Part shown: positions 17,580 through 37,175 of the stretch, in pieces | How positions within the stretch are numbered: the first letter of the stretch is position 1 | Layout: every line of letters starts with the position of its first letter | NCBI RefSeq assembly: GCF_006516955.1 | Contig: NZ_VHLG01000001.1 | Coordinates: 124,001-188,000, forward strand | Length of the DNA stretch: 64,000 bases | Reading direction: 5' to 3' | From: Martelella alba | Lineage (GTDB): Bacteria; Pseudomonadota; Alphaproteobacteria; Rhizobiales; Rhizobiaceae | The notes under the pieces: generated by a model | Told to the model about the DNA's origin: nothing | Database searches by the model: none | Seen by the model: only the letters and a program-made list of their open reading frames with translations | Made by a program: the position numbers and the translations under genes

Positions 17580-18368
17580 CCCGTATCTCCAATCTGGATG
17601 ATGGCATTTCGGATTGCTTGCTGAGCATCGCCTTCACACGTGAAAGCAAAGCTCGGAGGTACCGACGGGATCCTGGTTGTGTATTTTTTTGGCCTTTCGT
17701 TCCAACAGGCTATCCCCCGGGGTAAGCTGAAACAATTCTTTCACCTCTTCAGAACACCAATTCTCAAAATGGTTTCGACTTATGTTTTTTTGTCGAATAT
17801 TTTGAGCTATTCAGAAGACGTTTAAAGATGACCCATATTTTTTTAGTATCATCTATTATGATTCCTATTTCAAATCAATGCCCTGTGTATACGTCTGAAA
17901 AACAATCATTTAAATTCAGAAAAAACTAAATTTTTCAAAGAATGGAAATCAAATATGAACTTGATTATATCGTTTTATCAAATGTTTGAATGTGTCGATT
18001 CTTGTCGTATTTGTCGCTAACTACTTACGCTTAGTGGGGCTTACGAAGCGCCAGTTGGCGCAGTTTCAACGCCAGATGCGCGGATAGGTCGCACCCGAGT
18101 GTGGAGGGATCGAAGCCTGGAAGGATCGCACGATCGATGCAGGTCGAGCGCACGACCTATGTCTTGGGGTGCGGCGAAAAATCAATCGTAAACGGTGACA
18201 ATATGTCGGTGATGCGCAAGACGTGAAGCATTGCTGCCGACCGGCCCTACTTGCCCGCTCGCTGTAAACACAAGGGGTTCGCCGGGCTTGGTCGCAGCCA
18301 TTGCAAATCATGGCTATCTCTGATCGTTCAGAGACTAAAGCGAGCAAGATCTATCCCCGCAGCGGCGA
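17580..18368. other. AT-rich intergenic region and possible left edge / oriT of the mobile element
   Basis: No gene is supported. 17640-18000 is markedly AT-rich with long A and T runs. From 18020 the composition rises to that of the mobile element. Structures seen: a perfect palindrome GCGCCA-GT-TGGCGC at 18048-18061, two CTTACG repeats flanking it upstream (near 18024 and 18040), and an inverted pair ATAGGTCG near 18084 with CGACCTAT near 18153. An origin of transfer is expected just upstream of mobC, so this is a candidate oriT, but no known nic consensus was recognised. Confidence 0.35.
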
Positions 18369-18689
18369 TTGCGGGAAACTGGCTTGAACAGTGATGTACA
18401 GAGAAAGCGGCCCCCAACGCATGGATTTATCGGGGTGCAAAAAATAACAGCTAAGTTATTGAGAAAGTTAACTCTCCTGGAGAGAGATGGTGCAGCTGAG
18501 CGGAGCAACATAGAACCGGAATCTCTGTCTGACATCTTTACTGAACTGGAAAATTGGGAGGTCATTCTCCGGGCCGATCCGCAAGCTGCGCAGGCACTTC
18601 TGGCGCTGAAAGACACGGATAGCGGCGTTACGGAAACACCGAAGCGAGACTGTGGGCAACTGTCCAGGGTCCGGGGGCCATCGCCATGA
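18369..18689 (+). CDS. Hypothetical protein upstream of mobC
   Basis: The frame encodes up to 106 residues from a TTG, or 84 from a GTG at 18435. The core is charged and probably helical (KLLRKLTLLERDG, SLSDIFTELENWEVILRADP). Its TGA overlaps the mobC ATG by 4 bases, which suggests translational coupling and argues that it is real. I do not recognise a family. A relaxosome accessory role is possible from position only. Confidence 0.4.
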   Translation: MRETGLNSDVQRKRPPTHGFIGVQKITAKLLRKLTLLERDGAAERSNIEPESLSDIFTELENWEVILRADPQAAQALLALKDTDSGVTETPKRDCGQLSRVRGPSP

Positions 18690-19114
18690 GCGCCCTCGCC
18701 AGCACCTTCACCAAAACCGCCAAGAACAAGGGCGGCGCGCGCGCCGGCCACAAGACGACACGCGACTGTCCGCGTGTCACCGTCCGCTTCTCGCCGGACG
18801 ATTATGAACGGCTGCAGGAACTGGCTGACGGCATGGCGCTTGGCGTCTATATCCGGGCGATGGCGCTGCAGGAGGAACTGCCGCGCCGGAAACCCCGCTC
18901 GGCGGCCTCGGTGGCCGACAAGGCCGCGATCGCGCAGTTGCTCGGATTGTTGGGGCAATCGCGGATCGCCAATAATCTGAACCAGCTTGCCTACCATGCG
19001 AATATCGGCAGCCTGACAATCGACGACAAGGCTCTGGGCCGGATCGACGAGGCCTACGCGCATGTGCTTCTGATCCGGGCGACGCTGATGCGCGCCCTTG
19101 GGATGCGGGAGTGA
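18686..19114 (+). CDS. mobC: Plasmid-type mobilization protein MobC
   Basis: MobC proteins help the relaxase open DNA at oriT. The 142-residue product has a basic N-terminal tail, a ribbon-helix-helix-like segment (CPRVTVRFSPDDYERLQELA) and the conserved C-terminal part (GQSRIANNLNQLAYHANIGS) found in MobC of alphaproteobacterial mobilizable elements. It is followed after 6 bases by the relaxase start, the normal order. It appears intact. Confidence 0.85.
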   Translation: MSALASTFTKTAKNKGGARAGHKTTRDCPRVTVRFSPDDYERLQELADGMALGVYIRAMALQEELPRRKPRSAASVADKAAIAQLLGLLGQSRIANNLNQLAYHANIGSLTIDDKALGRIDEAYAHVLLIRATLMRALGMRE

Positions 19115-19120
19115 CCCGGC

Positions 19121-19480
19121 ATGATCCTCAAGGGCAATCAGCGGGCCCATGGCCGGGAACTGGCCCTGCATCTGCTCAACACCGAAGACAACGAGCATGC
19201 GGTGATCCACGAGCTGCGCGGCTTTCTCGCCGATGACCTGATCGGCGCGTTCAAGGAAGCCGAAGCCATTTCGCGCGGGACGAAGTGCGAGCAGTATCTG
19301 TTCTCGCTCAGCCTCAATCCGCCGAAATCGGCGAAAGTGTCGATCGCCGAATTCGAGACGGTGATTGCCGATATCGAACGGCGGCTCGGCCTCACCGGCC
19401 AGCCGCGCGCCATCGTCTTCCACGAGAAGAAGGGCCGCCGCCATGCGCATTGCGTCTGGTCGCGGATCGATGAGGCATAA
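19121..19480 (+). pseudogene. Relaxase (VirD2-like), N-terminal fragment
   Basis: Only the first 116 or so residues of a MOB relaxase remain. The start (MILKGNQRAHGRELALHLL), the segment RGTKCEQYLFSLSLNPP and the HxH metal motif (FHEKKGRRHAHCVWSRID) match relaxases of alphaproteobacterial IMEs, which are normally several hundred residues long. Directly after SRID the frame meets a stop, and homology passes to an oppositely oriented methyltransferase fragment. The catalytic Tyr region may remain but the domain is cut before its end, so the protein cannot nick. This is the left boundary of the cargo region. Confidence 0.85.
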
Positions 19481-19614
19481 TCCTTCGTCCAGACGATATG
19501 TCCGACGATCCGGAAACCGGCCTCGTCCCATGCGGCGGTAAAGTCCGGCAATGCCGTCCAGCCGCAAAAGCTGATGCAGAGCGTATCCTGTTTCAGCACC
19601 CGGTGGATTATCAT
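19466..19614 (-). pseudogene. DNA methyltransferase fragment
   Basis: Read on the minus strand, about 45 residues (HRVLKQDTLCISFCGW, then GFRIVGHIVWTKDYASS) resemble the central part of N6/N4 DNA methyltransferases of the D21-type found on mobile elements, where the segment ends KxYASS. Both ends are missing: a TGA lies two codons before the first methionine, and the homology stops at the relaxase junction. A relic of a lost cargo gene, left by recombination. Confidence 0.6.
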
Positions 19615-20593
19615 GCGTCAGCGCCGAGGTCGCAGTACCCGGGATCTGTTCAATGCAAAATTCGTTCTTCTTACGAAGAATGGTCTTCTTGCCCAATTGA
19701 CACGAAGAAAGTGCGTCGAACTTGGCGTCGCGAGTCCTTCCTCCATACCGCCAGTCGTACATCGACGTGTTTTTTCGACTTCAATTTGGCTTCGCACGGG
19801 CCTTGGAGCAGGCAACCTCGAAATACCGAAGCGCCTTCTTTTGGCTAGTTGCGAGCAAGTTCTTGCAATACGGCCGGGCGTTGTAAATGCGGTTCGACAG
19901 ATCACACAGCAACTTGGAGACGAAGCGAAAATCCGGCAACTCGATTTACTTGTGTCACGCGACCGAAGCGCACAGATGTTGATGGACAAGACGTTGGGTG
20001 CGGCAAGCGTCCCTAACGCCGACAACATTTCCGAACTTTTCAACGAGATGTTGCATCCTTATCTCGAAGAAGAACGGCGGCAACACAAGAGTACCTTGAA
20101 CGAGGAACGGCAAAGAGCACTGGAGCGAAGCGCAAAGGACCATGAGAAGATCAGGACGGAGGCCGGCGCCCGACAATCTCTCGAGGAAGAACTGTGCCAG
20201 CAGCGGCGTGAAGATTTTACGGCGCACAAATCACTCTGCCGAGACGTTTCGATAATCCTCAGACGTCAGCAACGTACCAAGAAGGCCGTTGCGTGGCTTG
20301 GCGCATTGATCTTGGCAATTATGACTTTCCTTCCCCTCCCTGACTATATCGAGCCTAAATGGGCGTTCCGTCTGGCGGGTCTGATCGCTACGATCATGAT
20401 GACCTATTTGACAATAACCGGCAACAGCCTGCTTCACCTCGGTATCAGCAAGGAAAAAGCACTAAAAGAGCTTAAACGACAGGCACGAAAACGTGCCCTT
20501 GATCAAAAGCTAGAGCGGCATGATGTCGTATGGGAGGGTGACAGTTTTACTCTTGCTAACAATCGCGCTAAGGAGCACACAACGCTATTTTGA
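19574..20593 (+). CDS. N-terminally truncated membrane protein with PIN-like start (unknown function)
   Basis: The frame gives 339 residues, but the first 18 or so overlap the methyltransferase fragment and are probably not native. From about residue 25 (LFNAKFVLLTKNGLLAQLTRR) the sequence resembles the end of a PIN-like nuclease domain, followed by a helical region (STSIWLRTGLGAGNLEIPKR), a long charged coiled coil (about 150-235), and two membrane helices near the C-terminus (AVAWLGALILAIMTFLPLP and GLIATIMMTYLTITGN). The native N-terminus is most likely lost at the junction near 19620, which would remove PIN catalytic residues. GC content is lower than in the IME backbone. Probably inactive. 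Confidence 0.45.
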   Translation: MQSVSCFSTRWIIMRQRRGRSTRDLFNAKFVLLTKNGLLAQLTRRKCVELGVASPSSIPPVVHRRVFSTSIWLRTGLGAGNLEIPKRLLLASCEQVLAIRPGVVNAVRQITQQLGDEAKIRQLDLLVSRDRSAQMLMDKTLGAASVPNADNISELFNEMLHPYLEEERRQHKSTLNEERQRALERSAKDHEKIRTEAGARQSLEEELCQQRREDFTAHKSLCRDVSIILRRQQRTKKAVAWLGALILAIMTFLPLPDYIEPKWAFRLAGLIATIMMTYLTITGNSLLHLGISKEKALKELKRQARKRALDQKLERHDVVWEGDSFTLANNRAKEHTTLF

Positions 20594-20844
20594 GTTGCCT
20601 CGGAAGGCTATACCTTCCCGTCGGAGGCAGGTTAGGTAGAATCACCGGATTTCAAACGTCAGCGACCTAGTAGCCGTCTCTCTGGCTGGCTCCGGCACTA
20701 GACACGCCTAAATCGCAGTTGACGTCCGAAGGAGAATCCGCGAACAAAACAAGAATGTGGATAATTAATAATTATATTTTTTCGAGAGCGAGATGATCGT
20801 AAGAATATTTGATAATCTCCAACCCAAGGGAAAGTAAAATCGGC

Positions 20845-22260
20845 ATGATGCGCGATACGGTCTTCATCTGTCATGCGACTCCTGACGACAATACGTTCGT
20901 TCGGTGGCTTGGCGCGCGGCTGAGTGGGCATGGCTATCGTGTCTGGGCAGACCTGTTCGAATTGAAAGGGGGGACTCCCTTCTGGCGCACAATCGAAGAA
21001 GCGCTCCGGCAGCGAGCCATAAAAGTCATCTTCGTCGTTTCGCGCCAGAGCGTAGACCCTGCGCGATCGGGCGTCCGCAATGAGCTCTCGGTAGCGGATA
21101 CGCTGAAGAAAACCTTGGGTGATCAGGAATTCATCATTCCGGTGCGGATTGATGACGTCCCATTCGGCGATTTTCCGATACAGGTTCACCAACTCAATGC
21201 ACTCGACTTTTCGCGCGATTGGGGCGTTCGGCTTGTTGAACTGCTGGACACTCTCGAGGTGGCTAATGTCCCTCGGCATCAGGATGATCGTACCGCCGAG
21301 TTCGAGGCCTGGCTCGATAGTTTCACCAGTACGGCCGCTCTTGTTGAAAAGACCGAAGAGCCGGTCCTGACTAACTGGTTGCCCATCGCGACGCTGCCAA
21401 CTTCCGTGAATTTTTACGAGTATGCCGGCTCTGAGGGGGGCATCAGGGATGCATTTCAGGGCGCGGGGCTACCGCATCGTTTTTTCTATAGGCTAATCAT
21501 ATCTTTTCTCGATCTGGCCAGCCTGCAATCCAACTTGCCACCAGCCAGCACGCTTTCACTTCGGGCACAGTTGCCGCTGGCGGGTTTTCTGTCGGGTAAG
21601 ACGGCGAATGTCACTTCACCAGATGCTGCGGATGCGCGCAATATTGCTACCCACCTTCTGCGCGAGCACGTCGAGAGGCATCTCGTTAACCGCGGACTCA
21701 AACGTTATGAGACGTCCTCAGGCACCGCATACTACTTCCCCAGAGGTTTGGTCACTAACGACAAAGTCGCTTATCTGGCTGCCTCGGGTAAAACCACGAG
21801 AAAAAATGTCGTTGGACGTAGCGAGCGATATAGGGTGTTCTGGCATCTCGCCATGAAGGTGACTGTTACGCTGGGCGACATCCCATTCGTGCGCTTTAAA
21901 CCCTATATCTGCTTTTCTGAAGACGGCGTTACCGCCATCGCCGATGTAAGAAAAACGTCGGCAATCCGTCGGCAATTCTGTAAGAACTGGTGGAACAAGC
22001 ACTGGCGACAGTTGCAACAAGCTTTTTGTGCGTTTTTAGCCGCGGAAAATCAGAACATCCCCATCAGCCTTGGATCTGACGAACTGGTACTGAATAGAGC
22101 CCTACTTGAGTTGACGGCAGTGCGCCGGATGACGGACGACCTGATGCTGATGGAACCAGAAGAGGCAGAAGACCCCGCCGAATCTGAGATCGACGAATGC
22201 AGTAATGAGGACTTCCTGCTTGAGGACACCGATAAGGAAACATCGGAGGCAGCAGAATGA
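20845..22260 (+). CDS. TIR-APAZ protein of a SPARTA defence system
   Basis: The 471-residue protein has an N-terminal TIR domain (about 1-150) and a C-terminal APAZ domain (about 160-470), the partner subunit of short Argonautes. TIR features include VFICHATPDD at strand A, WLGARLSGHGYRVWADLFEL with the BB-loop, and VSRQSVDPARSGVRNELSVA, where Glu80 is the predicted NADase catalytic residue. In known SPARTA complexes RNA-guided recognition of invading DNA makes the complex oligomerise and the TIR domain destroy NAD(P)+, killing or arresting the cell. Its stop overlaps the Argonaute ATG by 4 bases (ATGA). ATG at 20845 (or 20848) follows AAGGGA; an upstream start at 20809 is less likely. An acidic tail ends the protein. 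Confidence 0.92.
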   Translation: MMRDTVFICHATPDDNTFVRWLGARLSGHGYRVWADLFELKGGTPFWRTIEEALRQRAIKVIFVVSRQSVDPARSGVRNELSVADTLKKTLGDQEFIIPVRIDDVPFGDFPIQVHQLNALDFSRDWGVRLVELLDTLEVANVPRHQDDRTAEFEAWLDSFTSTAALVEKTEEPVLTNWLPIATLPTSVNFYEYAGSEGGIRDAFQGAGLPHRFFYRLIISFLDLASLQSNLPPASTLSLRAQLPLAGFLSGKTANVTSPDAADARNIATHLLREHVERHLVNRGLKRYETSSGTAYYFPRGLVTNDKVAYLAASGKTTRKNVVGRSERYRVFWHLAMKVTVTLGDIPFVRFKPYICFSEDGVTAIADVRKTSAIRRQFCKNWWNKHWRQLQQAFCAFLAAENQNIPISLGSDELVLNRALLELTAVRRMTDDLMLMEPEEAEDPAESEIDECSNEDFLLEDTDKETSEAAE

Positions 22261-23771
22261 ACGAATGGCGTCTGATTCATATTGATGAACCGCAATTGGC
22301 ATTCGGCTTTGGCCAGAAAGCAGAACACCCGAAAGATGGCTTGTTCCTGTTCGGGCCGCCGGTCTCTAACCAGAGCCCAGCACGTATGGATATCGGCATC
22401 ATCGGTACTAAGCGAGCCGCGGCGATCTATGAAAGCTGGGTTCAATCAATCCAGACGAATATCGCCGAACCTGAAAAAGGAAGGCCCGAGAACAAGATGA
22501 TGTGGCCGGGTTTTCAGGCGGTCTTCGGCATTCCTTGGCCAGCAAAACCTTTCGCTTCATGCCAGATCGATGGCGCAGAACTCAGCCGCCGGATACGAGG
22601 CGACGATCGCCATGAGGCAATTTATAAGGCAGTTGACCTGTATGAAGAAGCCCTGCGCAGGTACTTACGAGAAGAAGAAGCGCGACCGCAGCTATGGTAC
22701 GCGATCGTACCCGAGGAAGTTTTCCGTTATGGTCGACCGCAATCGAATGTGCCACGCGATATTCGTGAGTCTACAAAGGGAGCACTAGGTAAGCGCGTGG
22801 CGCAAAAGATTCTTCGTGAGGGCTCCCTTTTTTCCGAAGAGGTCGAGGCTGCAGCAATTTATGAGTATGAACTCAATTTTCACAACCAGCTTAAGGCGAG
22901 ACTACTTGATACAAAACAGGTAATCCAGGTAGTTCGCGAGACGACACTCGCGCCGTTGCTCGCTGAGGAAGACAGCCGACGATCATTACAGGATACCGCT
23001 TCGGTCGCATGGAATCTCGCCACAACGAGCTTTTACAAATCTGGCGGCCGACCGTGGCGCATTGCTGATGTGCGTGAACATGTCTGCTATGTCGGACTGG
23101 TCTACAAACGTATCGAAAATGCCAAAGGGCGAGACAATGCTTGTTGCGGCGCCCAGATGTTCCTTTCAAGCGGAGACGGCGTCGTTTTCAAGGGTGCGGT
23201 AGGCCCTTGGTACTCGGAGGTCAACGGCCAGTATCAGCTTTCGAAGGAGAAAGCAGCCGAACTCATGGATATGGTCGTCAAAGCTTACTGCGATTCGCAT
23301 GATCGTCCGCCAACAGAACTTTTCATCCACGGTCAGGCGGCATTCGGCGACGATGAGTGGGCGGGCTTTGCGAGCTCGGTGCCGGAGGGCACGAAACTCG
23401 TCGGTGTTCGCATCAAGCGGCAAACCGAGATCAAGCTGTTTCGCTTTGGCGATCGTCCTGTATTACGAGGGACAGCCATGATCGCAGGAGCTCGAAAGGC
23501 ATATCTTTGGAGCGTAGGATTCACACCTCGTCTAAACACCTATCCTGGTCGGGAGGTGCCCAATCCGCTTACCGTGGACATCGTTCGTGGCGAAACGGAT
23601 ATTGAAACCGTTCTCGCCGACCTTTTATCGTTGACCAAGCTAAACTTCAACAATGCCGGATTTTCGGATGGCCTCCCGGTAACACTGAGATTTGCCGACT
23701 TGGTCGGTGAAATTTTGACCGCGGGCCCGACCGACAACACGCCGCCGCTACCATTTAAATATTATATTTAA
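22257..23771 (+). CDS. Short prokaryotic Argonaute (MID-PIWI) of a SPARTA system
   Basis: The 504-residue protein has only MID and PIWI domains, no N or PAZ. The MID region (about 120-230) contains LWYAIVPEEVFRYGRPQSNV. The PIWI domain follows, with YVGLVYKRIE near 278 and LFIHGQAAFGDDEW near 355; both places lack the Asp residues of the DEDX slicer tetrad, so it should bind but not cut. The C-terminus LTKLNFNNAGF and GLPVTLRFADLVGEI is characteristic of pAgos. In the family it loads a guide RNA, finds single-stranded target DNA, often from plasmids, and triggers the TIR-APAZ partner. Translationally coupled to the upstream gene. Confidence 0.93.
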   Translation: MNEWRLIHIDEPQLAFGFGQKAEHPKDGLFLFGPPVSNQSPARMDIGIIGTKRAAAIYESWVQSIQTNIAEPEKGRPENKMMWPGFQAVFGIPWPAKPFASCQIDGAELSRRIRGDDRHEAIYKAVDLYEEALRRYLREEEARPQLWYAIVPEEVFRYGRPQSNVPRDIRESTKGALGKRVAQKILREGSLFSEEVEAAAIYEYELNFHNQLKARLLDTKQVIQVVRETTLAPLLAEEDSRRSLQDTASVAWNLATTSFYKSGGRPWRIADVREHVCYVGLVYKRIENAKGRDNACCGAQMFLSSGDGVVFKGAVGPWYSEVNGQYQLSKEKAAELMDMVVKAYCDSHDRPPTELFIHGQAAFGDDEWAGFASSVPEGTKLVGVRIKRQTEIKLFRFGDRPVLRGTAMIAGARKAYLWSVGFTPRLNTYPGREVPNPLTVDIVRGETDIETVLADLLSLTKLNFNNAGFSDGLPVTLRFADLVGEILTAGPTDNTPPLPFKYYI

Positions 23772-23869
23772 GCTGGTATTTTCGTGATCAAGTTTTTTAT
23801 GCCGATGCGGGATCGTAAGCTGAAGGTATCGCGCTACGATATCTGTCTTCTCTAAAAGACTCTTATAAT

Positions 23870-23898
23870 TTGACATATTTATTTTTCAACCTTATCAA
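23870..23898 (+). promoter_or_regulatory. Candidate sigma-70 promoter
   Basis: A perfect -35 box TTGACA (23870-23875) is followed after 17 bases by TATCAA (23893-23898), in an AT-rich stretch 32 bases before the ATG at 23930. It suggests that the downstream two-gene unit has its own promoter, separate from SPARTA. Confidence 0.45.
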
Positions 23899-23929
23899 TT
23901 ATATATTGTCAAATAAACTGGTTTTCGCG

Positions 23930-24826
23930 ATGAGACACGAGAAGAAGAGGGCGATTGTTGCATACCCGCCAAGCTCGCCTCACTCGATTTTTCCTCCATT
24001 TATTGTTGACGCGGGCGCTCTTGGAATTGACCGCTTAATTCGCGCTATAGCTGCAGCTCTTGTGATTACCAAAGGACCTATTTTCGTCATCAATAGTTGC
24101 AAGATATCAGCACGCGGGGAGAGAAACGAAGCCGAATTACGCGTGTATGGAAGAATGTTTGATCAACTTAGGGCTAGCGGTTTCCTGGAAAAATTTGAGA
24201 GCCAAGTAAAGTTCTATGAATATGAGTACATTCAAGAACTTACGGACACTTCCTCGCAGGTGACCCTTGCAAATTCGCGGACATGTACCGACATAATCAC
24301 CGAAGCCAGCAAAAGTTATGGCTTTTCAACCGAGGCTGGATTGAGTTATCATGAGGATTCAATATCGCGCTCGGCCCACATAGAAGATCACACGCCTGTA
24401 GAAAGTTGGTCAGATATGGTAGAAAAAAGAGAAAAGACCGACTTTGAGAGGGGAATATACGAAGCAATTCGGCCTTATTTCGAAGAATTACAAGTTACAT
24501 CCAGGGAAATCAGGAAAGATGTAAGACAAACACAAAGCAACTTTGTCAATTTGTCTAGAGATATATCACAGTTAAATCTTTCTGTCACCTTTAACAACGA
24601 ACTGATTCAAGCCGTTGAAAGGGAATTCCTAAACTTCAAAACGGACGTGCATGCCGACAACGAACTTTTACGCCAAGAGATGGCGGATGACAATAAGAAG
24701 CTCCGTGAGGAGATGAGCAAGGGGAATGATGCGCTCCGCCATGAAATCCGTGAGGGTAACGAAAAAACCAATCAAATTCTTCAAGATATTGCCGAACTCC
24801 TAAGGAACCAAATGCGTCCGAGTTAG
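23930..24826 (+). CDS. Unrecognised coiled-coil protein, candidate defence gene
   Basis: I do not recognise a family. The 298-residue product has a basic start (MRHEKKRAIVAY), a mixed alpha/beta-looking N-terminal domain (FIVDAGALGIDRLIRAIAAALV, then IFVINSCKISARGERNEAEL), a middle rich in Ser/Thr, and from about residue 180 a long coiled coil ending in regular heptads (NKKLREEMSKGNDALRHEI). ATG at 23930 lacks a clear ribosome binding site; an in-frame TTG at 23870 would add a hydrophobic leader but coincides with a -35 box. The low-GC composition matches the other cargo. A small membrane protein follows after 12 bases, so the two probably work together. Location between SPARTA and a STAND gene makes a defence role likely but unproven. 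Confidence 0.6.
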   Translation: MRHEKKRAIVAYPPSSPHSIFPPFIVDAGALGIDRLIRAIAAALVITKGPIFVINSCKISARGERNEAELRVYGRMFDQLRASGFLEKFESQVKFYEYEYIQELTDTSSQVTLANSRTCTDIITEASKSYGFSTEAGLSYHEDSISRSAHIEDHTPVESWSDMVEKREKTDFERGIYEAIRPYFEELQVTSREIRKDVRQTQSNFVNLSRDISQLNLSVTFNNELIQAVEREFLNFKTDVHADNELLRQEMADDNKKLREEMSKGNDALRHEIREGNEKTNQILQDIAELLRNQMRPS

Positions 24827-24838
24827 GTTGTTGCTTTA

Positions 24839-25048
24839 ATGAAGAAAAAAATCTTACCAAACGATCTCGATCGAATGGAATACGACGAAAGAGGAAGGCT
24901 ATATTGGGATGGTGAGCCTGTAGTAACGGATGCAAAATTAGCATTGAATCGGCGTGAGAAACTCTTTGCGATCGTGATAGGTGTGTGCACAGCGTTGGGC
25001 GGGATTGGATCTATGATACAGGGTATTGTTGCGATTTTGACCAAATAG
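24839..25048 (+). CDS. Small single-pass membrane protein
   Basis: The 69-residue protein has a charged N-terminal part (MKKKILPNDLDRMEYDERGR) and one C-terminal membrane helix (LFAIVIGVCTALGGIGSMIQGIVA, 20-odd residues with glycine motifs suited to oligomerisation). It begins 12 bases after the coiled-coil gene and shares its base composition. By analogy with two-component abortive-infection systems it could be a membrane effector gated by the upstream protein; the sequence itself shows only topology and linkage. Confidence 0.6.
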   Translation: MKKKILPNDLDRMEYDERGRLYWDGEPVVTDAKLALNRREKLFAIVIGVCTALGGIGSMIQGIVAILTK

Positions 25049-25379
25049 CGGTCAATAGATTGCCGAATTCGAAATGACCAATATCGCCATAACATGCTCC
25101 GATACACCTTCCACGAAGGAAAGCATGCCGTCGCATGAGACGACGGGCCAGAAAGGGACAAAGGCACCACCAAATCCAGCGGGAAATCGGCGACTATCAC
25201 ACCAACAAGCATCACGTCGCGCTGCCAATCACTAATCTAATTGAGCGGTAATTCAAGGCACCCAACCATCGTTGAAGGCAAAGTGGCTGGTCTTTTATAT
25301 GAAGGGGATGCAACGGGGCAAAGCCCCTTGCCAAGGTGGTGGGGTCAGCCCCCACACAACCTTGCCTCCGAATGAAATT
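25049..25379. other. Intergenic region with two GC-rich hairpins
   Basis: No gene is supported. Near its right end are GGGG-CAAAG-CCCC (25315-25327) and GTGGGG-TCAGC-CCCAC type stem (25339-25355), possibly transcription stops between the plus-strand membrane-protein gene and the minus-strand IS remnant. The boundary with IS homology is near 25380. Confidence 0.4.
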
Positions 25380-25914
25380 CGGTCTTCAGGGCCATGTCGC
25401 GTCGGGTGCAGGCCGATAGGAGGCTCACGTCCGTGCGCTTGGCAATGCTCTCGTAATAGGTGGACGGGGCAATCGGCAGCAGTCTGCAGATCGGCTCGAC
25501 CCCGAGCACCGCGCAGTGTTCGTCGATGAAGGAAATCATCGCTTCAGTGGGCGGTCGAGCTCCGACTGGGCAAAATACGCTGAGGCTTTGCGTAAAATCT
25601 CGTTCGCCTGACGCAGCTCGCGGTTCTCCCGTTCCAGAGCCTTCATCTTCTCCGAGACATCGCTCGGCAGACCCGCTCGCTTGCCGCTGTCCACCGCGGA
25701 CTTCTTCACCCACTCATTCAGCGTGGGTGCAGAGCAGCCGATCTTGGCGGCAATCGAGCAGACGCCGTCCAACGGGAGGGATGTTCGGCTTCCTGCTCCG
25801 CCACCATTCGAACGGCGCGGGCGCGGACTTCAGGAGAGAATTTGTTCGTCGTCTTGCTTGTCATGGACCCTACTTCTCACGAGTTAGGGTCTCCGGCAAA
25901 GCCGGTGCGGTTCA
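25380..25914 (-). mobile_element. IS3-family (IS407-like) insertion sequence remnant
   Basis: Reading on the minus strand from the left inverted end (TGAACCGCACCGGCTTTGCC at 25914 downward) one meets an orfA start at 25864 ([19 protein letters not shown]), then a one-base frameshift near 25770, after which orfA continues ([19 protein letters not shown] to DRPLKR). OrfB begins ([20 protein letters not shown]) but is cut after about 60 residues (ARRDMALK-like segment), so its DDE catalytic region and the other inverted repeat are missing. The element cannot move. Its left end lies inside the STAND-ankyrin gene and supplies that gene's last 13 codons. Confidence 0.8.
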
Positions 25915-28900
25915 TCCCGCCATTGTCCGTCATTCCCTGATTGACCTCGGCATCCCGATCGAGCAGCAATTGGGCGACGTCGCGATGGCCTTGCTGACAG
26001 GCAAACATCAGCGCGGTCCAGCCAGTATCCGTCCTTCCCTGATTGACCTCGGCATCCTGGTCGAGCAGCAATTGGGCGACGTCGCGATGGCCTTTCGCAC
26101 AGGCAAACATCAGCGCGGTCCAGTCTCTGTCCGTAGTGCCCTGATTGACCTCGGCATCCCGGTCGAGCAGCAACTGGGCAACGTCGCGATGGCCTTTCGC
26201 ACAGGCCGCCATCAGCGCGGTCCAGCCACTGTCCGTAGTGCCCTGATTGACCTCGGCATCCCGATCGAGCAGCAATTGGGCGACGTCGCGATGGCCTTCC
26301 GCACAGGCCGCCATCAACGCGGTCCAGCCACTGTCCGTAGTGCCCTGATTGACCTCGGCATCGCGGTCGAGCAGCAACTGGGCGACGTCGCGATGGCCTT
26401 CCTGACAGGCAAACGTCAGCGCGGTCCAGCCACTGTCCGTAGTACCCTGATTGACCTCGGCATCCCGGTCGAGCAGCAACTGGGCAACGTCGCGATGGCC
26501 TTCCGCACAGGCCACCATCAGCGCGGTCCAGCCTCTGTCCGTAGTGCCCTGATTGACCTCGGCATCCCGGTCGAGCAGCAATTGGGCGACGTCGCGATGG
26601 CCTTCCTGACAGGCAAACATCAGCGCGGTCCAGCCTCTGTCCGTAGTGCCCTGATTGACCTCGGCATCGCGGTCGAGCAGCAATTGGGCAACGTCACAAT
26701 GGCCTTCCGCACAGGCCGCCATCAGCGCGGTCCAGCCAATGTCCGTAGTGCCCTGATTGACCTCGGCATCGCGGTCGAGCAGCAACTGGGCAACGTCGCG
26801 ATGGCCTTTCTGACAGGCCGCCATCAGCGCGGTCAAGCCAATGTCCGTAGTGCCCTGATTGACTTCGGCATCGCGGTCGAGCAGCAATTGGGCAACGTCG
26901 CAATGGCCTTCCGCACAGGCCGCCATCAGCGCGGTCCAGCCAATGTCCGTAGTGCCCTGATTGACCTCGGCATCGCAGTCGAGCAGCAATTGGGCAACAG
27001 AGAGGCATCCGAGAAAACTGGCCAACATTAGCCCGCTCCATCCGCCTTCGTGATCGGCCCCGAAATTCCTTAGAACTGATATCAAATCCCCATTAGAAAC
27101 TTGATGATCTTTGCCCATCTTGTCATGCCGGTTACAAAATAATAGCAGCGCTTCTGCTGCTTGCGAAACAATAATGCCATTGGACGCTCGAACAATCGAT
27201 TGGGGGGCAACACGGCCAAGCACGCGCGAGGATAGTGTTTCCTGGCCGATGCTCCTCAGTTGCTCCGACACATAGACGGCTGCGACCGAAATCGCTTCGC
27301 CAATTTGGTGGCCTGCCGGAAGCCTAGTTGGATCAAGTACGCTTCCCAATGCTTCCCAGGATTGACCGACATTGGGATCGTCCTGATCGTCATTGCCAAG
27401 GTTGCGCGCTGTTTGCCGAAGAAATGATAGAAGCTCCTTTGCATCACGATCGATCTGGCTTCTGTCGGCGTGATAAAGCATTTTGAAGAATGTTTGTCTA
27501 AATCTTCCCGCAAGACCAAATTCGCGCAGCCACAGAATAAAGAAGCTCTCGCCGAGAATGTCCGGTTCTAAACGCTGTAGTTCGAAACCAACAGCTTTGG
27601 ACGTTAACTGTGTGCATTGCTGTTTGATGTTGCTCAAAAGGAAATCGAAATCATCTCGATCAGCAAGGTCGCCTGGCAAGCAGTCCACGAGGTCAGCGAA
27701 GGAAGAGTCCCGCAGCGCCGTTGCAACAGCGACCATGCACCCCGCCCATTTTCCGCTTTTCCGCTCAGCGTCGGTTCCTGCTTTCCAGGGTAACCGATTG
27801 TGGGTTTCCAGATAATAATGGATGAGATCATACCTCTTCCCAAACGTAAGACCGGGGTCAGTCGCCAGCGCATATCCGCGCAGTGCGGCGAATAACGGGC
27901 ACCATGCGCCTTTGATTTTTTCAAGTTCGTCGATCACCGTATTGACGGTCTGCGTATCAAGCACTCGTCCGTGAAGATGCGACGCACGCTTCAATATCTC
28001 GATGAGCAGATCACGTGACTGGTCTGGAGGTTCAAGGTGCAGCGGTGACGAAAGATGAAATCGTTCCTTCTTCAGGTCAAAATCTGTGCCGCCAGTGGAA
28101 ATTCCCTCGAACCGCTTGTCCTGAAGCAACAGGTCGAAGGATTTGGGGAAAACATGGTCGATCAGCAAAACCCTGACTGGATGGATCGGGCTATTGTGAC
28201 CGTCTTTTTCCTCTTTCCCCCATCGAGCAAAAAAGACTGCGATGATGTCGGCAAAGTTATGAATATAGTCAACCACAATGAAAGTTGGTCGGTCGGGCTC
28301 CCAAATCCTCCAAATCTCCTGATCATTTTGATCAAATTGACGCCACTTTTCCTTGCTGTCGCGGTCCAAAAAACCAATGTTCCAATTGCTGTCACCATAT
28401 GATTTCCGGAATTCACGCATCCATTCAGTGACAAGACGGGTCTTTCCAGCACCGGATGGTCCTGTAAGCGCCCAGACCTGAAAATTTCCCCTGTTGCTCA
28501 GGGCAAAGTCGGTCAGTCTCTTCTTCTCAGTCTCTCGTCCCGTTAACGGCAACGCGTCCTCGACAAGCGGGCTAAGCCAATTTGACTTGTCCGCAGCGAT
28601 CGGTTGAACGTCAGGAAGCCAGAGAGGGGGCTCCTTGGAGATAGCCTTGTCATCAACCCGTCTGAAAACCTCGATTCCCCGGTCACGCAAATGCTCCTTG
28701 AAGACCAACGTATCGATTGTGTCGGCATAGCTCAGATTGTCGAGGAGACTGTGGAAACCATAGTAAATTGCAATTGCATATTCAATTCGTCCGTTGCCAC
28801 GTTGTAGGTCATCAATTTTGCCATCGTGCAGCGTCTTGATGATTTTCCAATCATTGTCGTCGTCACAGCCGACAGCTTCCAACCAGTTCGTCCATCGACG

Positions 28901-29074
28901 CTCGGTTTCCGCCTTATTACCCGTTGATTTGAGGGGGCCATATGTACGGAGCCTTGCGGCGTCTTTGCCGATCTTGGTTTTGAATTCCGTAACATGCGGA
29001 GCGCCATCTTCGATGAACTCTGTTGGTATTAGCTTTTTAAATTGCGAATATTTCAGAATTGCCGAAATGCCCAT
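25877..29074 (-). CDS. STAND-type P-loop NTPase with C-terminal ankyrin repeats
   Basis: The 1065-residue protein has an N-terminal domain of unknown type (1-175), an NTPase core with Walker A GPSGAGKT at 205-212 and Walker B FIVVDY at 265-270, a helical/winged-helix arm (about 340-650), and an array of 34-residue ankyrin units from about 679 to 1052. This layout of effector, NTPase and repeat sensor is that of STAND (NLR-like) proteins, several of which are antiphage sensors. The N-terminal effector type was not recognised. The last 12 residues ([12 protein letters not shown]) come from an inserted IS end, so the native C-terminus is lost. ATG at 29074 follows GAGGA; TTG at 29092 is possible. 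A small gene lies just upstream on the same strand. Confidence 0.8.
25919..27040 (-). repeat. Tandem 102-bp repeats encoding 11 ankyrin units
   Basis: Eleven head-to-tail units of 102 bases encode 34-residue ankyrin repeats of the form [20 protein letters not shown] plus [14 protein letters not shown]. Ten are almost identical in DNA and protein; the first (27040 side) is diverged ([14 protein letters not shown]). Variation is concentrated at a few positions: residue 6 and 9-10 (AACAE, FACQE, VACAE, FACAK) and 33 (I, R, S, T). Such uniformity implies recent expansion or gene conversion. Confidence 0.95.
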
Positions 29075-29124
29075 TAGGCCGCGTCCTCGCAAAACGTCCG
29101 ACGCGCATTATTCAAACAATACAG

Positions 29125-29526
29125 CTAAGGTTCAAGCCTAGGACAGGGGGGTGGTGAAAATGTTTCAAGGTCACGCATGTGGGCTACTCTCAACGTCGCT
29201 CCAGTGTCCTTATCTCGCGCGATGTAAGCTACATCATCCGCCGAGGGTGTCTGGAATACATCATTGAATTCTTCCATGACATGAATCCCATTGTCGGGGT
29301 TGATCCTCAATTTAGACGGGCCATTCTTGCGGTGCGGGTAGTTGAGATGATGCCAAACAAATTCGTATGGGCGGCCCTCTGCGTCAAAAAGAACGTGCGA
29401 CGGGCGGCCATCTGGAGGACTGTGCAATTTGCCGCCGAGCTTGATTGTCATCCAGCGCGGAAGGTTGGTCTCCTCATCGACACCAAAATCAAGCTCATAT
29501 TGCTGCTTTCGAATTCCATTGCTCAC
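29125..29526 (-). CDS. Hypothetical protein upstream of the STAND gene
   Basis: The frame encodes 133 residues from a GTG at 29526. It looks like a compact globular protein (QQYELDFGVDEETNLPRWM, YEFVWHHLNYPHRKNGP, GIHVMEEFNDVFQTPS) without membrane segments. I do not recognise a family. The stop is 50 bases from the STAND start on the same strand, so the two are probably cotranscribed and may form one defence unit. The start is uncertain because the AAGG before the GTG is too close to be an ideal ribosome binding site. Confidence 0.55.
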   Translation of the reverse strand: MSNGIRKQQYELDFGVDEETNLPRWMTIKLGGKLHSPPDGRPSHVLFDAEGRPYEFVWHHLNYPHRKNGPSKLRINPDNGIHVMEEFNDVFQTPSADDVAYIARDKDTGATLRVAHMRDLETFSPPPCPRLEP

Positions 29527-29833
29527 ACCTTATCATACATTAGCCGGCTAAATAAATTCAAGAAAATAGTAATTTACATAAAAATATCAATATGTTAGTA
29601 GATCATCTCTGCGCGTCGCTATTTTAGGGTCTGTGACTGAAAAATCCGGCCTTTTCTCAGACTGTACGATTCCAGAACTTTCCAGAGCATTCCAGAACAG
29701 TCCCCGGAAGACCCACCGAGGCCGAGAAGCGATGCTGTTCACAGAGCTTCGGCAATGGATCGAAATGATCCGGCGTCAACGTACGACTAGGAACTCAGCG
29801 CTGTTTTCCACGTCCTAGAAGGGACTTTGGAAA
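29527..29833. other. Intergenic region at the right edge of the cargo
   Basis: AT-rich at its start (to about 29600). It contains three close copies of TTCCAGA (29674-29698 region). No supported gene. The hypothetical protein on the left is minus and the next frame on the right is plus, so both promoters may lie here. Confidence 0.4.
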
Positions 29834-30247
29834 ATGAAACCGACTACCAGGAAATACGGACTATCGATTTGCACATGTAACCACGATGCTCCGTCGCTCA
29901 GGGTGATTAGGTCACCCCTGTTCAACTGTGAGCTTGCCATTGATATCAACGAACTGGACCTATCCGGTGACGGGATTGCCGATTGGGTTCTGACGGAAGT
30001 CTTCGAATATCGAACGGGAACGCTGTTCGGTTTCGATGGCAAGCCCTTGCCGGTCGACGAGAATGTCAACCTGACGGACGACCTCTGGGGGGCTGACCAG
30101 AAGCGCAGCATCAACCGGTACCGGGATCGCGCATCGAAGCCGTTCCGCTATCGCCTGCAAATGCGGCTGGTCTGGCCGGTCCTGCTGATCCATTTCGCCC
30201 GCGAAATCCATCGCTGCCGGACGGAAGGCTGCTGCGCACAACGCTGA
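29834..30247 (+). CDS. Hypothetical protein, probably chimeric at its 3' end
   Basis: The frame encodes 137 residues. The first 90 (including DINELDLSGDGIADWVLTEV and DGKPLPVDENVNLTDDLWG) look like a natural acidic protein with a Ca-binding-like DxSGDG segment. The last 45 are arginine-rich and read like an out-of-frame translation; a different frame over the same DNA (30097-30378) looks more natural. The junction between cargo and mobile-element backbone therefore probably falls near 30090. No family recognised. Confidence 0.35.
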   Translation: MKPTTRKYGLSICTCNHDAPSLRVIRSPLFNCELAIDINELDLSGDGIADWVLTEVFEYRTGTLFGFDGKPLPVDENVNLTDDLWGADQKRSINRYRDRASKPFRYRLQMRLVWPVLLIHFAREIHRCRTEGCCAQR

Positions 30248-30378
30248 CACGCAGACCGATCACGCCAAATTCCGCCTCCATCCAGCCCGACGGTTCCGCC
30301 GCCGGGCTGGATACTGCCCTCAACACCGGAGACGCCGCTGGCGCCGGTGGAGATCAAGCGCTCCGGAAATTGCACTGA
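30097..30378 (+). pseudogene. Remnant open frame, possibly the C-terminal end of the interrupted relaxase
   Basis: In the frame starting CCA at 30097 there is no start codon but a long natural-looking Pro/Ala/Gly-rich sequence (RIEAVPLSPANAAGLAGPAD, then SASIQPDGSAAGLDTALNTG) ending ALRKLH and a stop at 30376. It sits on the same strand and in the order expected for the end of the relaxase gene whose beginning is at 19121, with the cargo between. Assignment to the relaxase is inference; it could be the end of another lost backbone gene. Confidence 0.35.
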
Positions 30379-30418
30379 CCGGGGCGCGTCTTTCGAAACG
30401 ATCGGGGTGGATGAGGCG

Positions 30419-31096
30419 ATGAAGCTTGTTTCTTTGAATGGCGCTCCTTTCCATGAAGGTACCAAGGCAATGCTCCAGGCAACGAAGGCGAAGGCGGTCC
30501 TGACCGTTTTCGAGGGGCCGACCGTCCCGGCGATCGTTCGGGCGAACTACATGATCATGGCCGAGGCGGCGCTGGCGCGGCACCCGGCACTCCTGAAGCG
30601 GATCGATCCGGTCGCGGTCTTCGGCAAAGGAACGATCGTGGCGCTGGCGACCGTTGGCGATCATCTTGAACTCGGCATGTATGCCCTGCGCGGCAGCGAC
30701 GATGCGGGGTCCCTTCTCTTTTGCAAGGGCTCTGTTTCCTGGGAGCGGGTGAGAGGCGTTGTCCCGGCTTTGATCGCAGCGATCTTCATGGCGGATATGG
30801 CCCGATCGGGAGCCTTCGCCTCGGGTCAGGCGATTGCACGGATACTGCCGTATGACGGGGTCAATATTGGCTCCAGCCTCAACTTTGCCCGCGCCGGCTT
30901 TTACCCGGCCCGGTCCTATTCGGAACGGATCGAGCTTTCCCAAATCCACCGCGCGGTGAAGGGATCGGCGGAGGAACGTCCGGACGGGCTTTATGTCCGG
31001 GCGCTGGAAATGCGCGGCAAGGCCGGGGACATCAAGCGTCGCTCCCGGGAAAACCTCGCCGGCTGGCAGTTGCGCTTTGGTGCGGTGCGCCGATAG
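30419..31096 (+). CDS. Hypothetical protein of the mobilizable element
   Basis: A 225-residue protein with high-GC backbone composition (start MKLVSLNGAPFHEGTKAMLQ). It contains a central hydrophobic stretch (VVPALIAAIFMADMARSGAF) and a basic C-terminus. No family recognised. ATG at 30419 with GATGAGG just upstream is chosen; a GTG at 30347 would extend it over the remnant frame before it. It is followed by about 175 bases and then a run of mobile-element genes on the same strand. Confidence 0.6.
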   Translation: MKLVSLNGAPFHEGTKAMLQATKAKAVLTVFEGPTVPAIVRANYMIMAEAALARHPALLKRIDPVAVFGKGTIVALATVGDHLELGMYALRGSDDAGSLLFCKGSVSWERVRGVVPALIAAIFMADMARSGAFASGQAIARILPYDGVNIGSSLNFARAGFYPARSYSERIELSQIHRAVKGSAEERPDGLYVRALEMRGKAGDIKRRSRENLAGWQLRFGAVRR

Positions 31097-31271
31097 CTGA
31101 AAACGATATTCGGGATCAGGCCGCCGGGAATGGCGGCCTGATCCCGTTTGTCCGATTTCTGCGAAACGCCCCTCCTCCGAAGCAGCCCACAATCCGCCCA
31201 AACCCGGCCCGCTTGGTGTCCTCCGTCCCGCTATTCATCGCACATCACCTTAACCAACAAGGAGACGTGCG

Positions 31272-32504
31272 ATGCCGAATGTCCCTCTTGCCCGCCCCGA
31301 CCGGCTGACGAAGCCGGAGCGCCGGCCTTATCTGAGCGTGATCCTCACCCTTCTGCCGTTGATATCCTCGGTGATGCTGTGGGTGGCGCTCAACAATCTC
31401 GGCATGACCGGTGAAGGCGTGCCGGGCTTTATCAAGACCCTGCTCCTGCCGGTCGCCGCCTATATGGTCAGCTACGCCACCTACCGCATGGCGATCGAGA
31501 AATCCGCCACGCTGGTTTCGGTCGGTTTTAATGCGGCGGCCTTTGTCGGGCTGATTTCGATTTTGATCGTCGGCGCCGGAATGTTCATGGCCACCATGCC
31601 GGGTCTGATCATCCGGCAGGTCGAGGAACGCCGCCTGCAGGCCTATGTGAGCGAGACGGAACATTATGTCAATGTCCGCAGCGCGGCGGCGGCGCAATCG
31701 GGACGGCTGGTGCCGGTCGTAACAGCGATTGCCGCCGATCTCGCAGCCAATGCGGCCTGCGAGAAGCAGAGCTCCTGCGTGTCTCTCAGCGGCGGCGGCG
31801 GTTATGGCCCGGCGGCACGAACCCTTGATACGCTCGCGGCGCGTGCGGCTTCGGTCCGCGATGCGATTGCGGGCGGGCTTCAGCAGCGTGACAACGGTCA
31901 GGCGGCGCTGGCTGCACAGATGGCACAGATGGAAACCGTGCTGGCCGATGAAGGCACCGATATCTGGAAGCGGCGCACGGCCTTGCGCAAGCGCGATGGC
32001 GAGATCGACCCGCTGTTGAGCGGACTGGACGAGGCCGTTCCTGCATCGACGCTTGCCGCCTATGCCGGGGAATTGCGCGGCGGCGTCACTCTTCCGGGAC
32101 AGCCGGTTGCGACGAAGCGGATCGAAGCCCTGCTTGCCGGCTATGCCGGCAATATCGAGGCGGTTCTCGGTGACATCGGGGCAGATTCGGTCACCCGGCC
32201 CGTCTTTCCGGCCCGCTCCGGGGCGATCCAGACCTTTGCCTATATCGGGGACTTCGCGCCGGTTGCCGTTCTGACCTTTGCCGTCGAGCTGCTCTTCCCG
32301 CTGACCTTGTGGGCCTATACGGTGATGTCGCTGATCTGGGCCCGCCATCAGGACAATCCTGAAGCGCCCGCACCGCGCGACAGCCCCTTCGAGGACCTGA
32401 CCAACCTCAGGGCGATCGCGATCCCGAAACAGGACCCGCCGCGTCCGGCGGCGACGACGGCGCGGCGCAAGCCGGGGCCACGCCGGCGGCAGGCCGAAGA
32501 CTGA
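31272..32504 (+). CDS. Membrane protein of the mobilizable element
   Basis: The 410-residue protein has three hydrophobic segments in the first 110 residues (VILTLLPLISSVMLWVAL, LLLPVAAYMVSYATYRMAI, AAFVGLISILIVGAGMFMA), a long extracytoplasmic-looking helical region with two cysteines (NAACEKQSSCVSL), and one more membrane helix near 330 (VAVLTFAVELLFPLTLWAYT), then a basic tail. AAGGAG stands 7 bases before the ATG. No family recognised; a role in coupling to a host transfer channel is possible. It is followed by a hairpin terminator at 32512. Confidence 0.65.
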   Translation: MPNVPLARPDRLTKPERRPYLSVILTLLPLISSVMLWVALNNLGMTGEGVPGFIKTLLLPVAAYMVSYATYRMAIEKSATLVSVGFNAAAFVGLISILIVGAGMFMATMPGLIIRQVEERRLQAYVSETEHYVNVRSAAAAQSGRLVPVVTAIAADLAANAACEKQSSCVSLSGGGGYGPAARTLDTLAARAASVRDAIAGGLQQRDNGQAALAAQMAQMETVLADEGTDIWKRRTALRKRDGEIDPLLSGLDEAVPASTLAAYAGELRGGVTLPGQPVATKRIEALLAGYAGNIEAVLGDIGADSVTRPVFPARSGAIQTFAYIGDFAPVAVLTFAVELLFPLTLWAYTVMSLIWARHQDNPEAPAPRDSPFEDLTNLRAIAIPKQDPPRPAATTARRKPGPRRRQAED

Positions 32505-32511
32505 GGACCGG

Positions 32512-32540
32512 GGGGGAGCGCAGGCTCCCCCTCTTCTTTT
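32512..32540 (+). terminator. Terminator after the 31272-32504 gene
   Basis: GGGGGAGC (32512-32519) pairs with GCTCCCCC (32524-32531) around a GCAG loop, followed by a T-rich run (TCTTCTTTT). Confidence 0.75.
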
Positions 32541-32672
32541 GCCCTGATCCATATCGCCCTTTCCGAACAATCCGCCCGAACCTGGCCCGCATGGTCCGCG
32601 CCGAAGGTCTAGCCATGGGATGCCGCAGCGATGCGGCGTCCCATTGTCCATGAACCGATACGGAGTTCGTCC

Positions 32673-33215
32673 ATGCCCATCGATATCAGCACCTTGCCCA
32701 TATCCGGCCGGGTTATCGTCGCCGGCCTCGTCTGGGCCGGCGTTTCGGCCTTCGCGCTCGGACCCTTGCTTGCCGAACGCACCGCAGAGAAAATCGGCTG
32801 GCAGGAGGATTGCCAGCACCAGGTCGTTGCGGCGATTGCGGCACGGCAGCCCGAACCTGAGGCTGGCCCCTCTTTCGGCTGCGATCAGGTCTTCGGGAGC
32901 CTGCCGCCCGAATACCGCCAGCTCATGGACATGTTCGGCGCGGGCATGGCCTGCGACGCGCTCGATCAGGCGAATGCCCAGAAAGAGCGGCTTCTGGAAC
33001 TGCGCCGCCAGCATCTGGAAAACGTCGCCCATGAGGCCGGCTCCAAATGTTCCTGCGCCGTTACCTCTTTCGCCATGACCAAGCGATGGGACCTGGCGCT
33101 GGCGGCGGGCAGCGCTCGTCTTCTGGTTCCGGCATCCGTCTCGAACATGCACGCCTCGCTGCTGGAGGCGCTCACAAGCCCTGCCTGCGCCAACCTTGCC
33201 AAAGCGGAGGACTGA
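32673..33215 (+). CDS. Exported or membrane-anchored hypothetical protein
   Basis: The 180-residue product has one N-terminal hydrophobic segment (VIVAGLVWAGVSAFALGPLL) and then a soluble part with six or so cysteines spaced as possible disulfide pairs (EDCQHQ, FGCDQVFG, GMACDALD, KCSCAV). It is probably anchored in the membrane with a periplasmic domain. ATG at 32673 has a CGGAG site. First gene of a tightly packed set (next gene 3 bases on). No family recognised. Confidence 0.65.
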   Translation: MPIDISTLPISGRVIVAGLVWAGVSAFALGPLLAERTAEKIGWQEDCQHQVVAAIAARQPEPEAGPSFGCDQVFGSLPPEYRQLMDMFGAGMACDALDQANAQKERLLELRRQHLENVAHEAGSKCSCAVTSFAMTKRWDLALAAGSARLLVPASVSNMHASLLEALTSPACANLAKAED

Positions 33216-33218
33216 GCG

Positions 33219-33593
33219 ATGATCTTCGGTTCTCTCTCCATTGACGGCGGCGTCATTCACACGCATCGGGACAGCTATCTGATCAAGGGTCTCAGCGTGA
33301 TCTCGGTCCGCCGGCCCTTCCTGCCGACAGGGCTTTTGATTGCCGCCAGCATCGGCGGCTTCGGGCTTGCCTATGGCGATCTTCTGCATCCTGGCGAACG
33401 CATCATCATCGCCTTGATCGCGCTTGCAGCCCTTGGCGGCGGTTGGACGCTCGGACAATTGCAGCTCCTCAGCCGTGATCTGCGCGGTTCGGAATTGTCG
33501 GGCGCAATCTATGGCTCCTATGGCCACCTGAACCGCCTGCGCCGGCAGATCGTCGCGGCCAAACACGGCGACAGACCGGAGGGCGCGGCATGA
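33219..33593 (+). CDS. Small membrane protein of the mobilizable element
   Basis: A 124-residue protein starts with a short beta-rich segment (MIFGSLSIDGGVIHTHRD, YLIKGLSVISVRR) and has two membrane helices (TGLLIAASIGGFGLAYG and IIIALIALAALGGGWTLG). The N-terminal part resembles small DUF6232-like membrane proteins. It overlaps the next gene by 4 bases, so the set 32673-35600 is one operon. Confidence 0.65.
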   Translation: MIFGSLSIDGGVIHTHRDSYLIKGLSVISVRRPFLPTGLLIAASIGGFGLAYGDLLHPGERIIIALIALAALGGGWTLGQLQLLSRDLRGSELSGAIYGSYGHLNRLRRQIVAAKHGDRPEGAA

Positions 33594-33898
33594 GCAACCA
33601 CCGCCCCGGTCTTCGCGACATTGTCGGGATCAATCTCAAGATTGTCGGCGGCCTCGGCCTTGCCGTTCTCGCCCGCTGGATGTGGGCGCATGCCTCGGTC
33701 CTCTGGTGGGGGCGCTGGCCGCTCTCGATCCTGTTCGGCCTTGGCGCACTGACCGCTTTCGCCGACGCCATCGGCGCGGTCAAGGCCCTCGTCCATCACG
33801 ATCTTGAGCAGCGCTCCTTCCGCCGCAAGGGCGTCGCTCCCCGATCCGACCGTCTCGTCTCCCCGGACACCCTGCGCAAGAAAGGCCTGATCAAATGA
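33590..33898 (+). CDS. Small membrane protein preceding the coupling ATPase
   Basis: A 102-residue protein with two hydrophobic segments (NLKIVGGLGLAVLARWMW and WPLSILFGLGALTAFAD) and a basic C-terminus. Its stop overlaps the start of the coupling ATPase by 4 bases. Because the ATPase lacks its own membrane anchor, this protein may supply it; that is inference from topology and coupling. Confidence 0.65.
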   Translation: MSNHRPGLRDIVGINLKIVGGLGLAVLARWMWAHASVLWWGRWPLSILFGLGALTAFADAIGAVKALVHHDLEQRSFRRKGVAPRSDRLVSPDTLRKKGLIK

Positions 33899-35860: not shown

Positions 35861-35921
35861 AGCGACAGTTTAGCAAAAAGCGGATTCGCGACGCAAATCC
35901 GGCCAAAGAGGAGATGATCCG

Positions 35922-36401: not shown

Positions 36402-36436
36402 CATTCAACATAAGGATTGAGGAAAGGAAGCCGACC

Positions 36437-37039: not shown

Positions 37040-37175
37040 GCGGATCATCCAAGCCCTTCTTTCCATAACGCATTGAATAAAAGGAATAAATTCCTTGACG
37101 AATGGACAGGATTCCCATTAGTGTTCTTCTTTTGTTCTTACCACAAAGGAGAACGTGAAACAAAACGGAGCCGAG

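Follow-up and report, generated by a model that had tools for sequence, protein, structure and literature searches.

A gene pair of Martelella alba raises the question of whether a SPARTA operon can be expected to act when it lacks residues that are reported as essential for activation in the systems of solved structure. The pair lies in a stretch of 64,000 nucleotides (the window; contig NZ_VHLG01000001.1, positions 124,001 to 188,000), and coordinates given without a locus number are positions of the window.

In the SPARTA system of Maribacter polysiphoniae (Map), NADase activity is reduced or lost with the changes G42R, D44A, R114Q, R54A, D111A and I110G/V113G (PMC10474274). In that of Crenotalea thermophila (Crt), it is abolished by Arg114 to Glu and Asn116 to Ala and, in the Argonaute, by Gln35 and Tyr37 to Ala (PMC11156904). 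According to the same papers, the contact between TIR domains needs Asp44 and Arg114 in Map, and Arg114 also in Crt (PMC10474274, PMC11156904), and the contact between Argonautes in Crt needs Gln35 and Tyr37 (PMC11156904). We infer that Asp44 and Arg114 touch each other directly. How general the reported essential contact is bears on SPARTA activation and on the use of these systems as DNA sensors.

Gene pair and domain organization

The TIR-APAZ gene occupies 20845..22260 on the forward strand (ATG at 20845, stop at 22260) and encodes an intact protein of 471 aa. It is followed on the same strand by an intact short Argonaute gene of the MID-PIWI type at 22257..23771 (ATG at 22257, stop at 23771; 504 aa). 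The two genes share 4 bp (ATGA), and a GGAGG motif precedes the Argonaute ATG within the 3′ end of the TIR-APAZ gene. A promoter scan gave no signal above chance, and none upstream of the operon.

The initial annotation had proposed a TIR-APAZ and short Argonaute pair and had suggested a check with TIR, APAZ and short-pAgo profiles. Both genes were recovered by such searches, with 478 bits (E 7e-144) for the PADLOC TIR-APAZ model, 690 bits (E 6e-208) for the PADLOC short-pAgo model and 74 bits (cut-off 28) for Pfam TIR_2 in the TIR-APAZ protein, while the Argonaute had no Pfam match at E 0.1. Both proteins could be aligned with solved SPARTA chains almost from end to end (E 1e-56 for TIR-APAZ, 8e-127 for the Argonaute), and the predicted fold agreed with the assignment. 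The Argonaute is a short pAgo with MID and PIWI domains only, which aligns end to end with solved short pAgo. That the APAZ region is fused behind the TIR domain is indicated by PADLOC, by the solved chains and by the Foldseek matches. For the SIR2 domain that marks SPARSA, no Pfam SIR2 match was obtained at E 0.1, and the matches to SIR2-APAZ models begin at residue 157 or later, i.e., within the APAZ part.

Domain borders, drawn from comparison with the solved chains and from the predicted fold, place the TIR domain at residues ~1-139, a bridging helix at ~150-163, APAZ at ~165-430 and an acidic tail at ~436-471. The tail (22150..22257, forward strand) has low confidence in the predicted fold and is likely disordered; acidic tails, judged by eye, are present in most of the TIR-APAZ relatives whose sequences were inspected. 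The alignment-based AlphaFold model of TIR-APAZ, built with 39 sequences, reached a mean pLDDT of 84 and a pTM of 0.61, and a single-sequence fold reached a pLDDT of only 35. The 35 best Foldseek matches of the model in the PDB were all SPARTA (TIR-APAZ/Ago) entries. The first 32, which are full-length solved chains, gave TM 0.42-0.54 by query with an rmsd of 12-15 Å, whereas the next three, chains of 251-286 residues, gave 3.0-4.1 Å; this gap may reflect a different hinge angle between TIR and APAZ in the model.

The pair shares with Map and Crt SPARTA (PDB 8fex, 8ifk, 8u72 and others) the two-gene layout, the domains, the catalytic Glu, the guide pocket, the Trp of the sensor loop and a non-slicing PIWI, at ~25-28% identity to the Map and Crt TIR-APAZ proteins in the Foldseek alignments. 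BabAgo/TIR-APAZ SPARTA (PDB 8qlo, 8qlp) also matches over the full length but has, like the other solved systems, Asp in the BB loop and Arg at the contact position. Judged from sequence, the operon very probably encodes a SPARTA abortive-infection system. SPARTA is already well described, and the operon is a further member of an ordinary system.

Catalytic and contact residues

Residues of the TIR-APAZ protein were compared over the 64 rows, Crt and Map included, that remained once nine partial rows and all those not longer than 430 aa had been set aside; Map enters these alignments with its first 146 residues and Crt to about residue 425. The predicted catalytic Glu80 (codon 21082..21084, forward strand) aligns with Glu77 of the Crt and Map chains, which bears out the intact NADase residue proposed at the outset. 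Glu80, Trp47 and His10 are invariant across the 39 sequences of the fold alignment, which holds none of the six rows that carry Asp at the catalytic position; in a larger set of 84 TIR-APAZ rows, 78 have Glu at this position and six have Asp. In Crt/Map numbering, Thr11, Gly42, Phe45, Trp46, Arg54, Ile110 and Asn116 are kept, and two changes are conservative (Tyr105 to Phe107, Tyr154 to Trp156).

The contact residues are different. The BB loop reads Thr44-Pro45 (20974..20979, forward strand) in place of Val43 (or Ala)-Asp44 of the solved systems, so that Asp44 is replaced by Pro45, and Arg114 is replaced by Gln116 (21190..21192, forward strand). Further changes are Val113 to His115, Leu159 to Thr161 and Map Asp111 (Glu in Crt) to Gln113. 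Map positions Asp111, Val113 and Leu159 are variable across the family, with Asp at 111 in only 2/64 rows.

The Argonaute was compared over the rows longer than 450 aa among L001, L002, L004-L007 and L029-L094, 70 in all with Crt and Map. Its predicted pocket for the 5′-phosphate of the guide is conserved, with His209 (His in 66/70), Lys213 (70/70), Asn465 (68/70) and the C-terminal Ile504 (62/70); Tyr148 of the Crt pocket is Phe156 here. In the PIWI sensor-loop region (residues ~312-330; 23190..23246, forward strand), Trp318 corresponds to Map Trp320 and is Trp in every row. The slicer columns, as named in PMC11156904, read Val282, Tyr326, Gln360 and Asp481. Replacement of the slicer aspartates, as originally stated, thus holds for three of the four columns; the fourth remains Asp as in Map and is acidic in 58/70 rows, Map included. 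These residues support a non-slicing PIWI. At the positions of the Argonaute contact, Gln35 (Asn in Map) is Ser37 and Tyr37 is Ala42, both within a gapped stretch of the alignment, and Ala is the most frequent residue at the Tyr37 position (34/70 rows).

At least seven positions that are reported as sensitive to mutation in Map or Crt differ: Asp44, Asp111, Arg114, Leu159, Val113 (in a double mutant) and, in the Argonaute, Gln35 and Tyr37. In the initial annotation all parts known to be required had seemed present; this does not stand for the TIR-TIR and Ago-Ago contacts, where the residues are Pro45, Gln116, Ser37 and Ala42.

Every biochemical step of the mechanism proposed for the pair is carried over from the Map and Crt systems. 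On that model, TIR-APAZ and the short Argonaute would combine as a heterodimer and take up a guide RNA with a 5′ phosphate. Once the guide pairs with single-stranded DNA of an invader, the PIWI sensor loop would move and the C-terminal helix of TIR-APAZ would be pushed out of place. The heterodimer complexes would then form a tetramer in which the TIR domains come together, and Glu80 would hydrolyse NAD(P)+, so that the cell is halted ahead of the spread of the invader.

A clade without the BB-loop acid

To place the contact residues, 84 TIR-APAZ rows were used, 82 of them distinct (L134/L037 and L133/L034 are identical pairs): Crt, Map and 82 loci out of 93. The other eleven loci were left out because their match began more than 10 residues from the start of the TIR domain or was shorter than 360 aa. 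An acid at BB-loop positions 43/44 is missing from 19 rows (17 distinct sequences) and present in all 65 others, and each of the three SPARTA proteins of solved structure carries both Asp44 and Arg114. In a quick IQ-TREE run from which the contact columns had been removed, these 19 rows were separated from the rest by a single branch (SH-aLRT 100), in an unrooted tree for which the program warned of long branches elsewhere.

Arg114 is also missing in 16 of the 19 rows. Residue 114 is Gln in 15, Arg in three and Thr in one of them (Gln 14, Arg 2 and Thr 1 among the 17 distinct sequences). Among the 65 acid-bearing rows it is Arg in 39, Asp in 9, Gln in 4, His in 4, Glu in 3, Pro in 2, Ser in 2, Gly in 1 and Thr in 1. 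The Arg is thus not family-defining, being found in 42/84 rows. The three rows of the clade that keep it (L160 and the identical L134 and L037) lie outside a subgroup of 16 rows (support 92). By parsimony, the acid changes once, and residue 114 changes 11 times when scored in three states (Arg, Gln, other). A single history in which the acid was lost first and Arg changed to Gln later fits this pattern. The catalytic helix of the clade carries Glu80 in all 19 rows, Arg78 in 16 and Asp85 in 15.

By record titles, the members of the clade come from at least ten families. We take all of them to be Alphaproteobacteria, the tree giving the families and Pseudomonadota and the plasmid records the class. 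The changes at the TIR contact are a trait of the lineage, and their recurrence throughout the clade suggests that the contact is made in some other way, not that it has decayed. No mention of the contact residues of this clade was found in the portions of the SPARTA literature consulted.

Selection, relatives and spread

The nearest relative is the pair of Mesorhizobium sp. LSJC280B00 (L029), with 82% (TIR-APAZ) and 91% (Argonaute) identity over the best segments. It has the same BB loop and Gln at the contact position, but its Argonaute is frameshifted close to the 3′ end, and none of six neighbouring proteins of the window that were tested had a match at its locus. Against L029, dN/dS was 0.14 for TIR-APAZ (TIR 0.09, APAZ 0.16, tail 0.12) and 0.07 for the Argonaute over the 450 codons ahead of the L029 frameshift, or 0.13 when the frameshifted end is counted. 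Both genes are under purifying selection, and the values of 0.14 and 0.07 argue for function.

Two Argonaute copies look broken: that of L029 (7992-9446 of its locus), with an apparent frameshift toward the end, and that of R. brockwellii (L158, 5395-6908 of its locus), annotated in two pieces. Intact copies exist elsewhere. The frameshift and the split copy indicate that the lineage is lost at times.

The Argonaute query found 66 loci in the genome collection, 63 of which had a TIR-APAZ match as well, some of them partial. Within the genus, it is present in 1/13 genomes, that of M. alba itself. Related Argonautes, of SPARTA or other kinds, occur in 27/297 genomes of the family, including its own, and in 101/72,556 plasmid records. 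Plasmid records with a TIR-APAZ relative number 35, of which 28 are typed as conjugative, and IMG/VR gave no such relative; phage records gave no match for the Argonaute. Two plasmid SPARTA copies (L159, L164) have other genes nearby: one adjoins TIR and SIR2 genes (pAspH13-3a) and one lies near a Hachiman HamA gene (pAA04).

How the clade may be activated

It is possible, and we propose it tentatively, that the clade including the Martelella operon is activated through a TIR-TIR contact unlike the Arg114/BB-loop contact of the solved structures. This would be a refinement of the SPARTA explanation and is not exclusive of it: in a SPARTA with a rewired intrastrand TIR contact, the acid would have been lost, Arg114 would have changed to Gln later, and residues typical of the clade, such as Arg78 and Asp85, might carry the contact. 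The loss of the acid in every row of the clade and in no other, the full support of the clade once the contact columns are removed, the position of the Arg-keeping rows outside the 16-row subgroup, the prevalence of Gln at 114 and of Arg78 and Asp85, and the presence of Asp44 and Arg114 in all three solved proteins are consistent with such a history, which we consider possible but short of probable. It is weakened by the fact that the acid was lost in a single event without independent repeats, and that residue 114 is labile outside the clade too, where Arg is kept in only 39/65 rows and Gln occurs in four rows that have the acid. The wide variation at Asp111, Val113 and Leu159 also means that some of the reported needs may be local to Map. 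If a rewired contact is correct, the 'essential' contact residues would be essential only in the solved lineage. The operon is of value as a test case, since its lineage bears by nature a residue which impairs the model system.

The same substitutions could instead mean that the TIR domain is intact in sequence yet unable to assemble, and that the operon is dead or dying. R114Q and D44A weaken or abolish the NADase of Map (PMC10474274), both positions are changed here, and the Argonaute of the nearest relative is frameshifted. Since the same residues are maintained across a clade that spans several families, with Glu80 throughout and dN/dS far below 1, decay is improbable. Still much less probable is a nuclease-type system (REase-TIR-APAZ or SPARDA-like) with the TIR domain as a scaffold. 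It is brought to mind by six related proteins (L004-L007, L143, L145) from the same family or order, which have Asp for the catalytic Glu, Arg for Trp46 and an N-terminal extension of 184-234 aa in 6/6; the one extended relative tested matches the REase-TIR-APAZ model. Such systems have TIR-APAZ and a short Argonaute in common with the Martelella pair, and the extra N-terminal nuclease is theirs only. The window protein begins at the TIR domain, its frame could be extended by at most 12 aa before the first Met, which leaves no room for a nuclease domain, and the REase-TIR-APAZ model matches it only from profile position 154 onward; it also retains Glu80 and Trp47. Its length already contradicts a nuclease type. 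The six Asp-bearing proteins themselves have, from their sequences, probably gained a nuclease and lost NADase activity. Extension alone does not track the loss of Glu, as 12 Glu-bearing rows have frames extended by 67-216 aa.

Carrier insert and neighbouring genes

The SPARTA operon lies in an insert of ~21 kb (17711..39151) between flanks that are common to the sister genome G303, which matches up to 17710 and from 39152 and lacks the Argonaute of the window. Past both edges G303 carries different sequence near contig ends and so shows no empty site. The left edge is defined by G303 alone; the right edge, at a tRNA-Leu(GAG) gene (39152..39236, reverse strand), holds among the other genus genomes listed too. 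A large serine recombinase gene with resolvase, recombinase and zinc-ribbon domains (37622..39310, forward strand) crosses the tRNA gene on the opposite strand. Upstream of the operon lie a NikA/MobC-like gene (18686..19114, forward strand) and a relaxase-like ORF (19121..19480, forward strand) that stops after 119 aa, and a gene for a TraG/VirD4-type coupling protein is found at 33895..35340 (forward strand). The carrier is an insert with a serine recombinase at its tRNA-Leu(GAG) edge and a truncated relaxase toward the opposite end, and the placement on a mobile element, made in the initial annotation, is supported. A search for direct repeats of at least 18 nt joining the insert edges gave none; the short cores usual for serine recombinases would escape at that length. 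GC3 is 0.75-0.82 in the MobC, TraG and recombinase genes vs 0.54-0.60 in the SPARTA genes, which suggests that the defence genes arrived as separate cargo.

Two neighbouring frames were considered as partners of the operon. The gene downstream (23870-24826) was not matched in any of the 93 other loci, in plasmids or in 296 other genomes of the order, and the 339-aa ORF upstream was likewise unmatched in those loci; the genome-collection loci in this comparison have flanks of only ~1.5 kb, often on contigs that stop short. Both were set aside, the former as a standing SPARTA partner and the latter as a conserved one. The downstream gene (forward strand, GC 0.44) encodes a 318-aa protein with no relative found and, judged by eye, a possible coiled-coil end. 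Further along, a reverse-strand gene (25877-29092) encodes a protein of 1071 aa with ten Pfam ankyrin stretches and matches to AAA/STAND-like NTPases below the cut-off. Its DNA repeats with a period of 102 nt, and 8/10 other copies are 83-91% like the reference copy.
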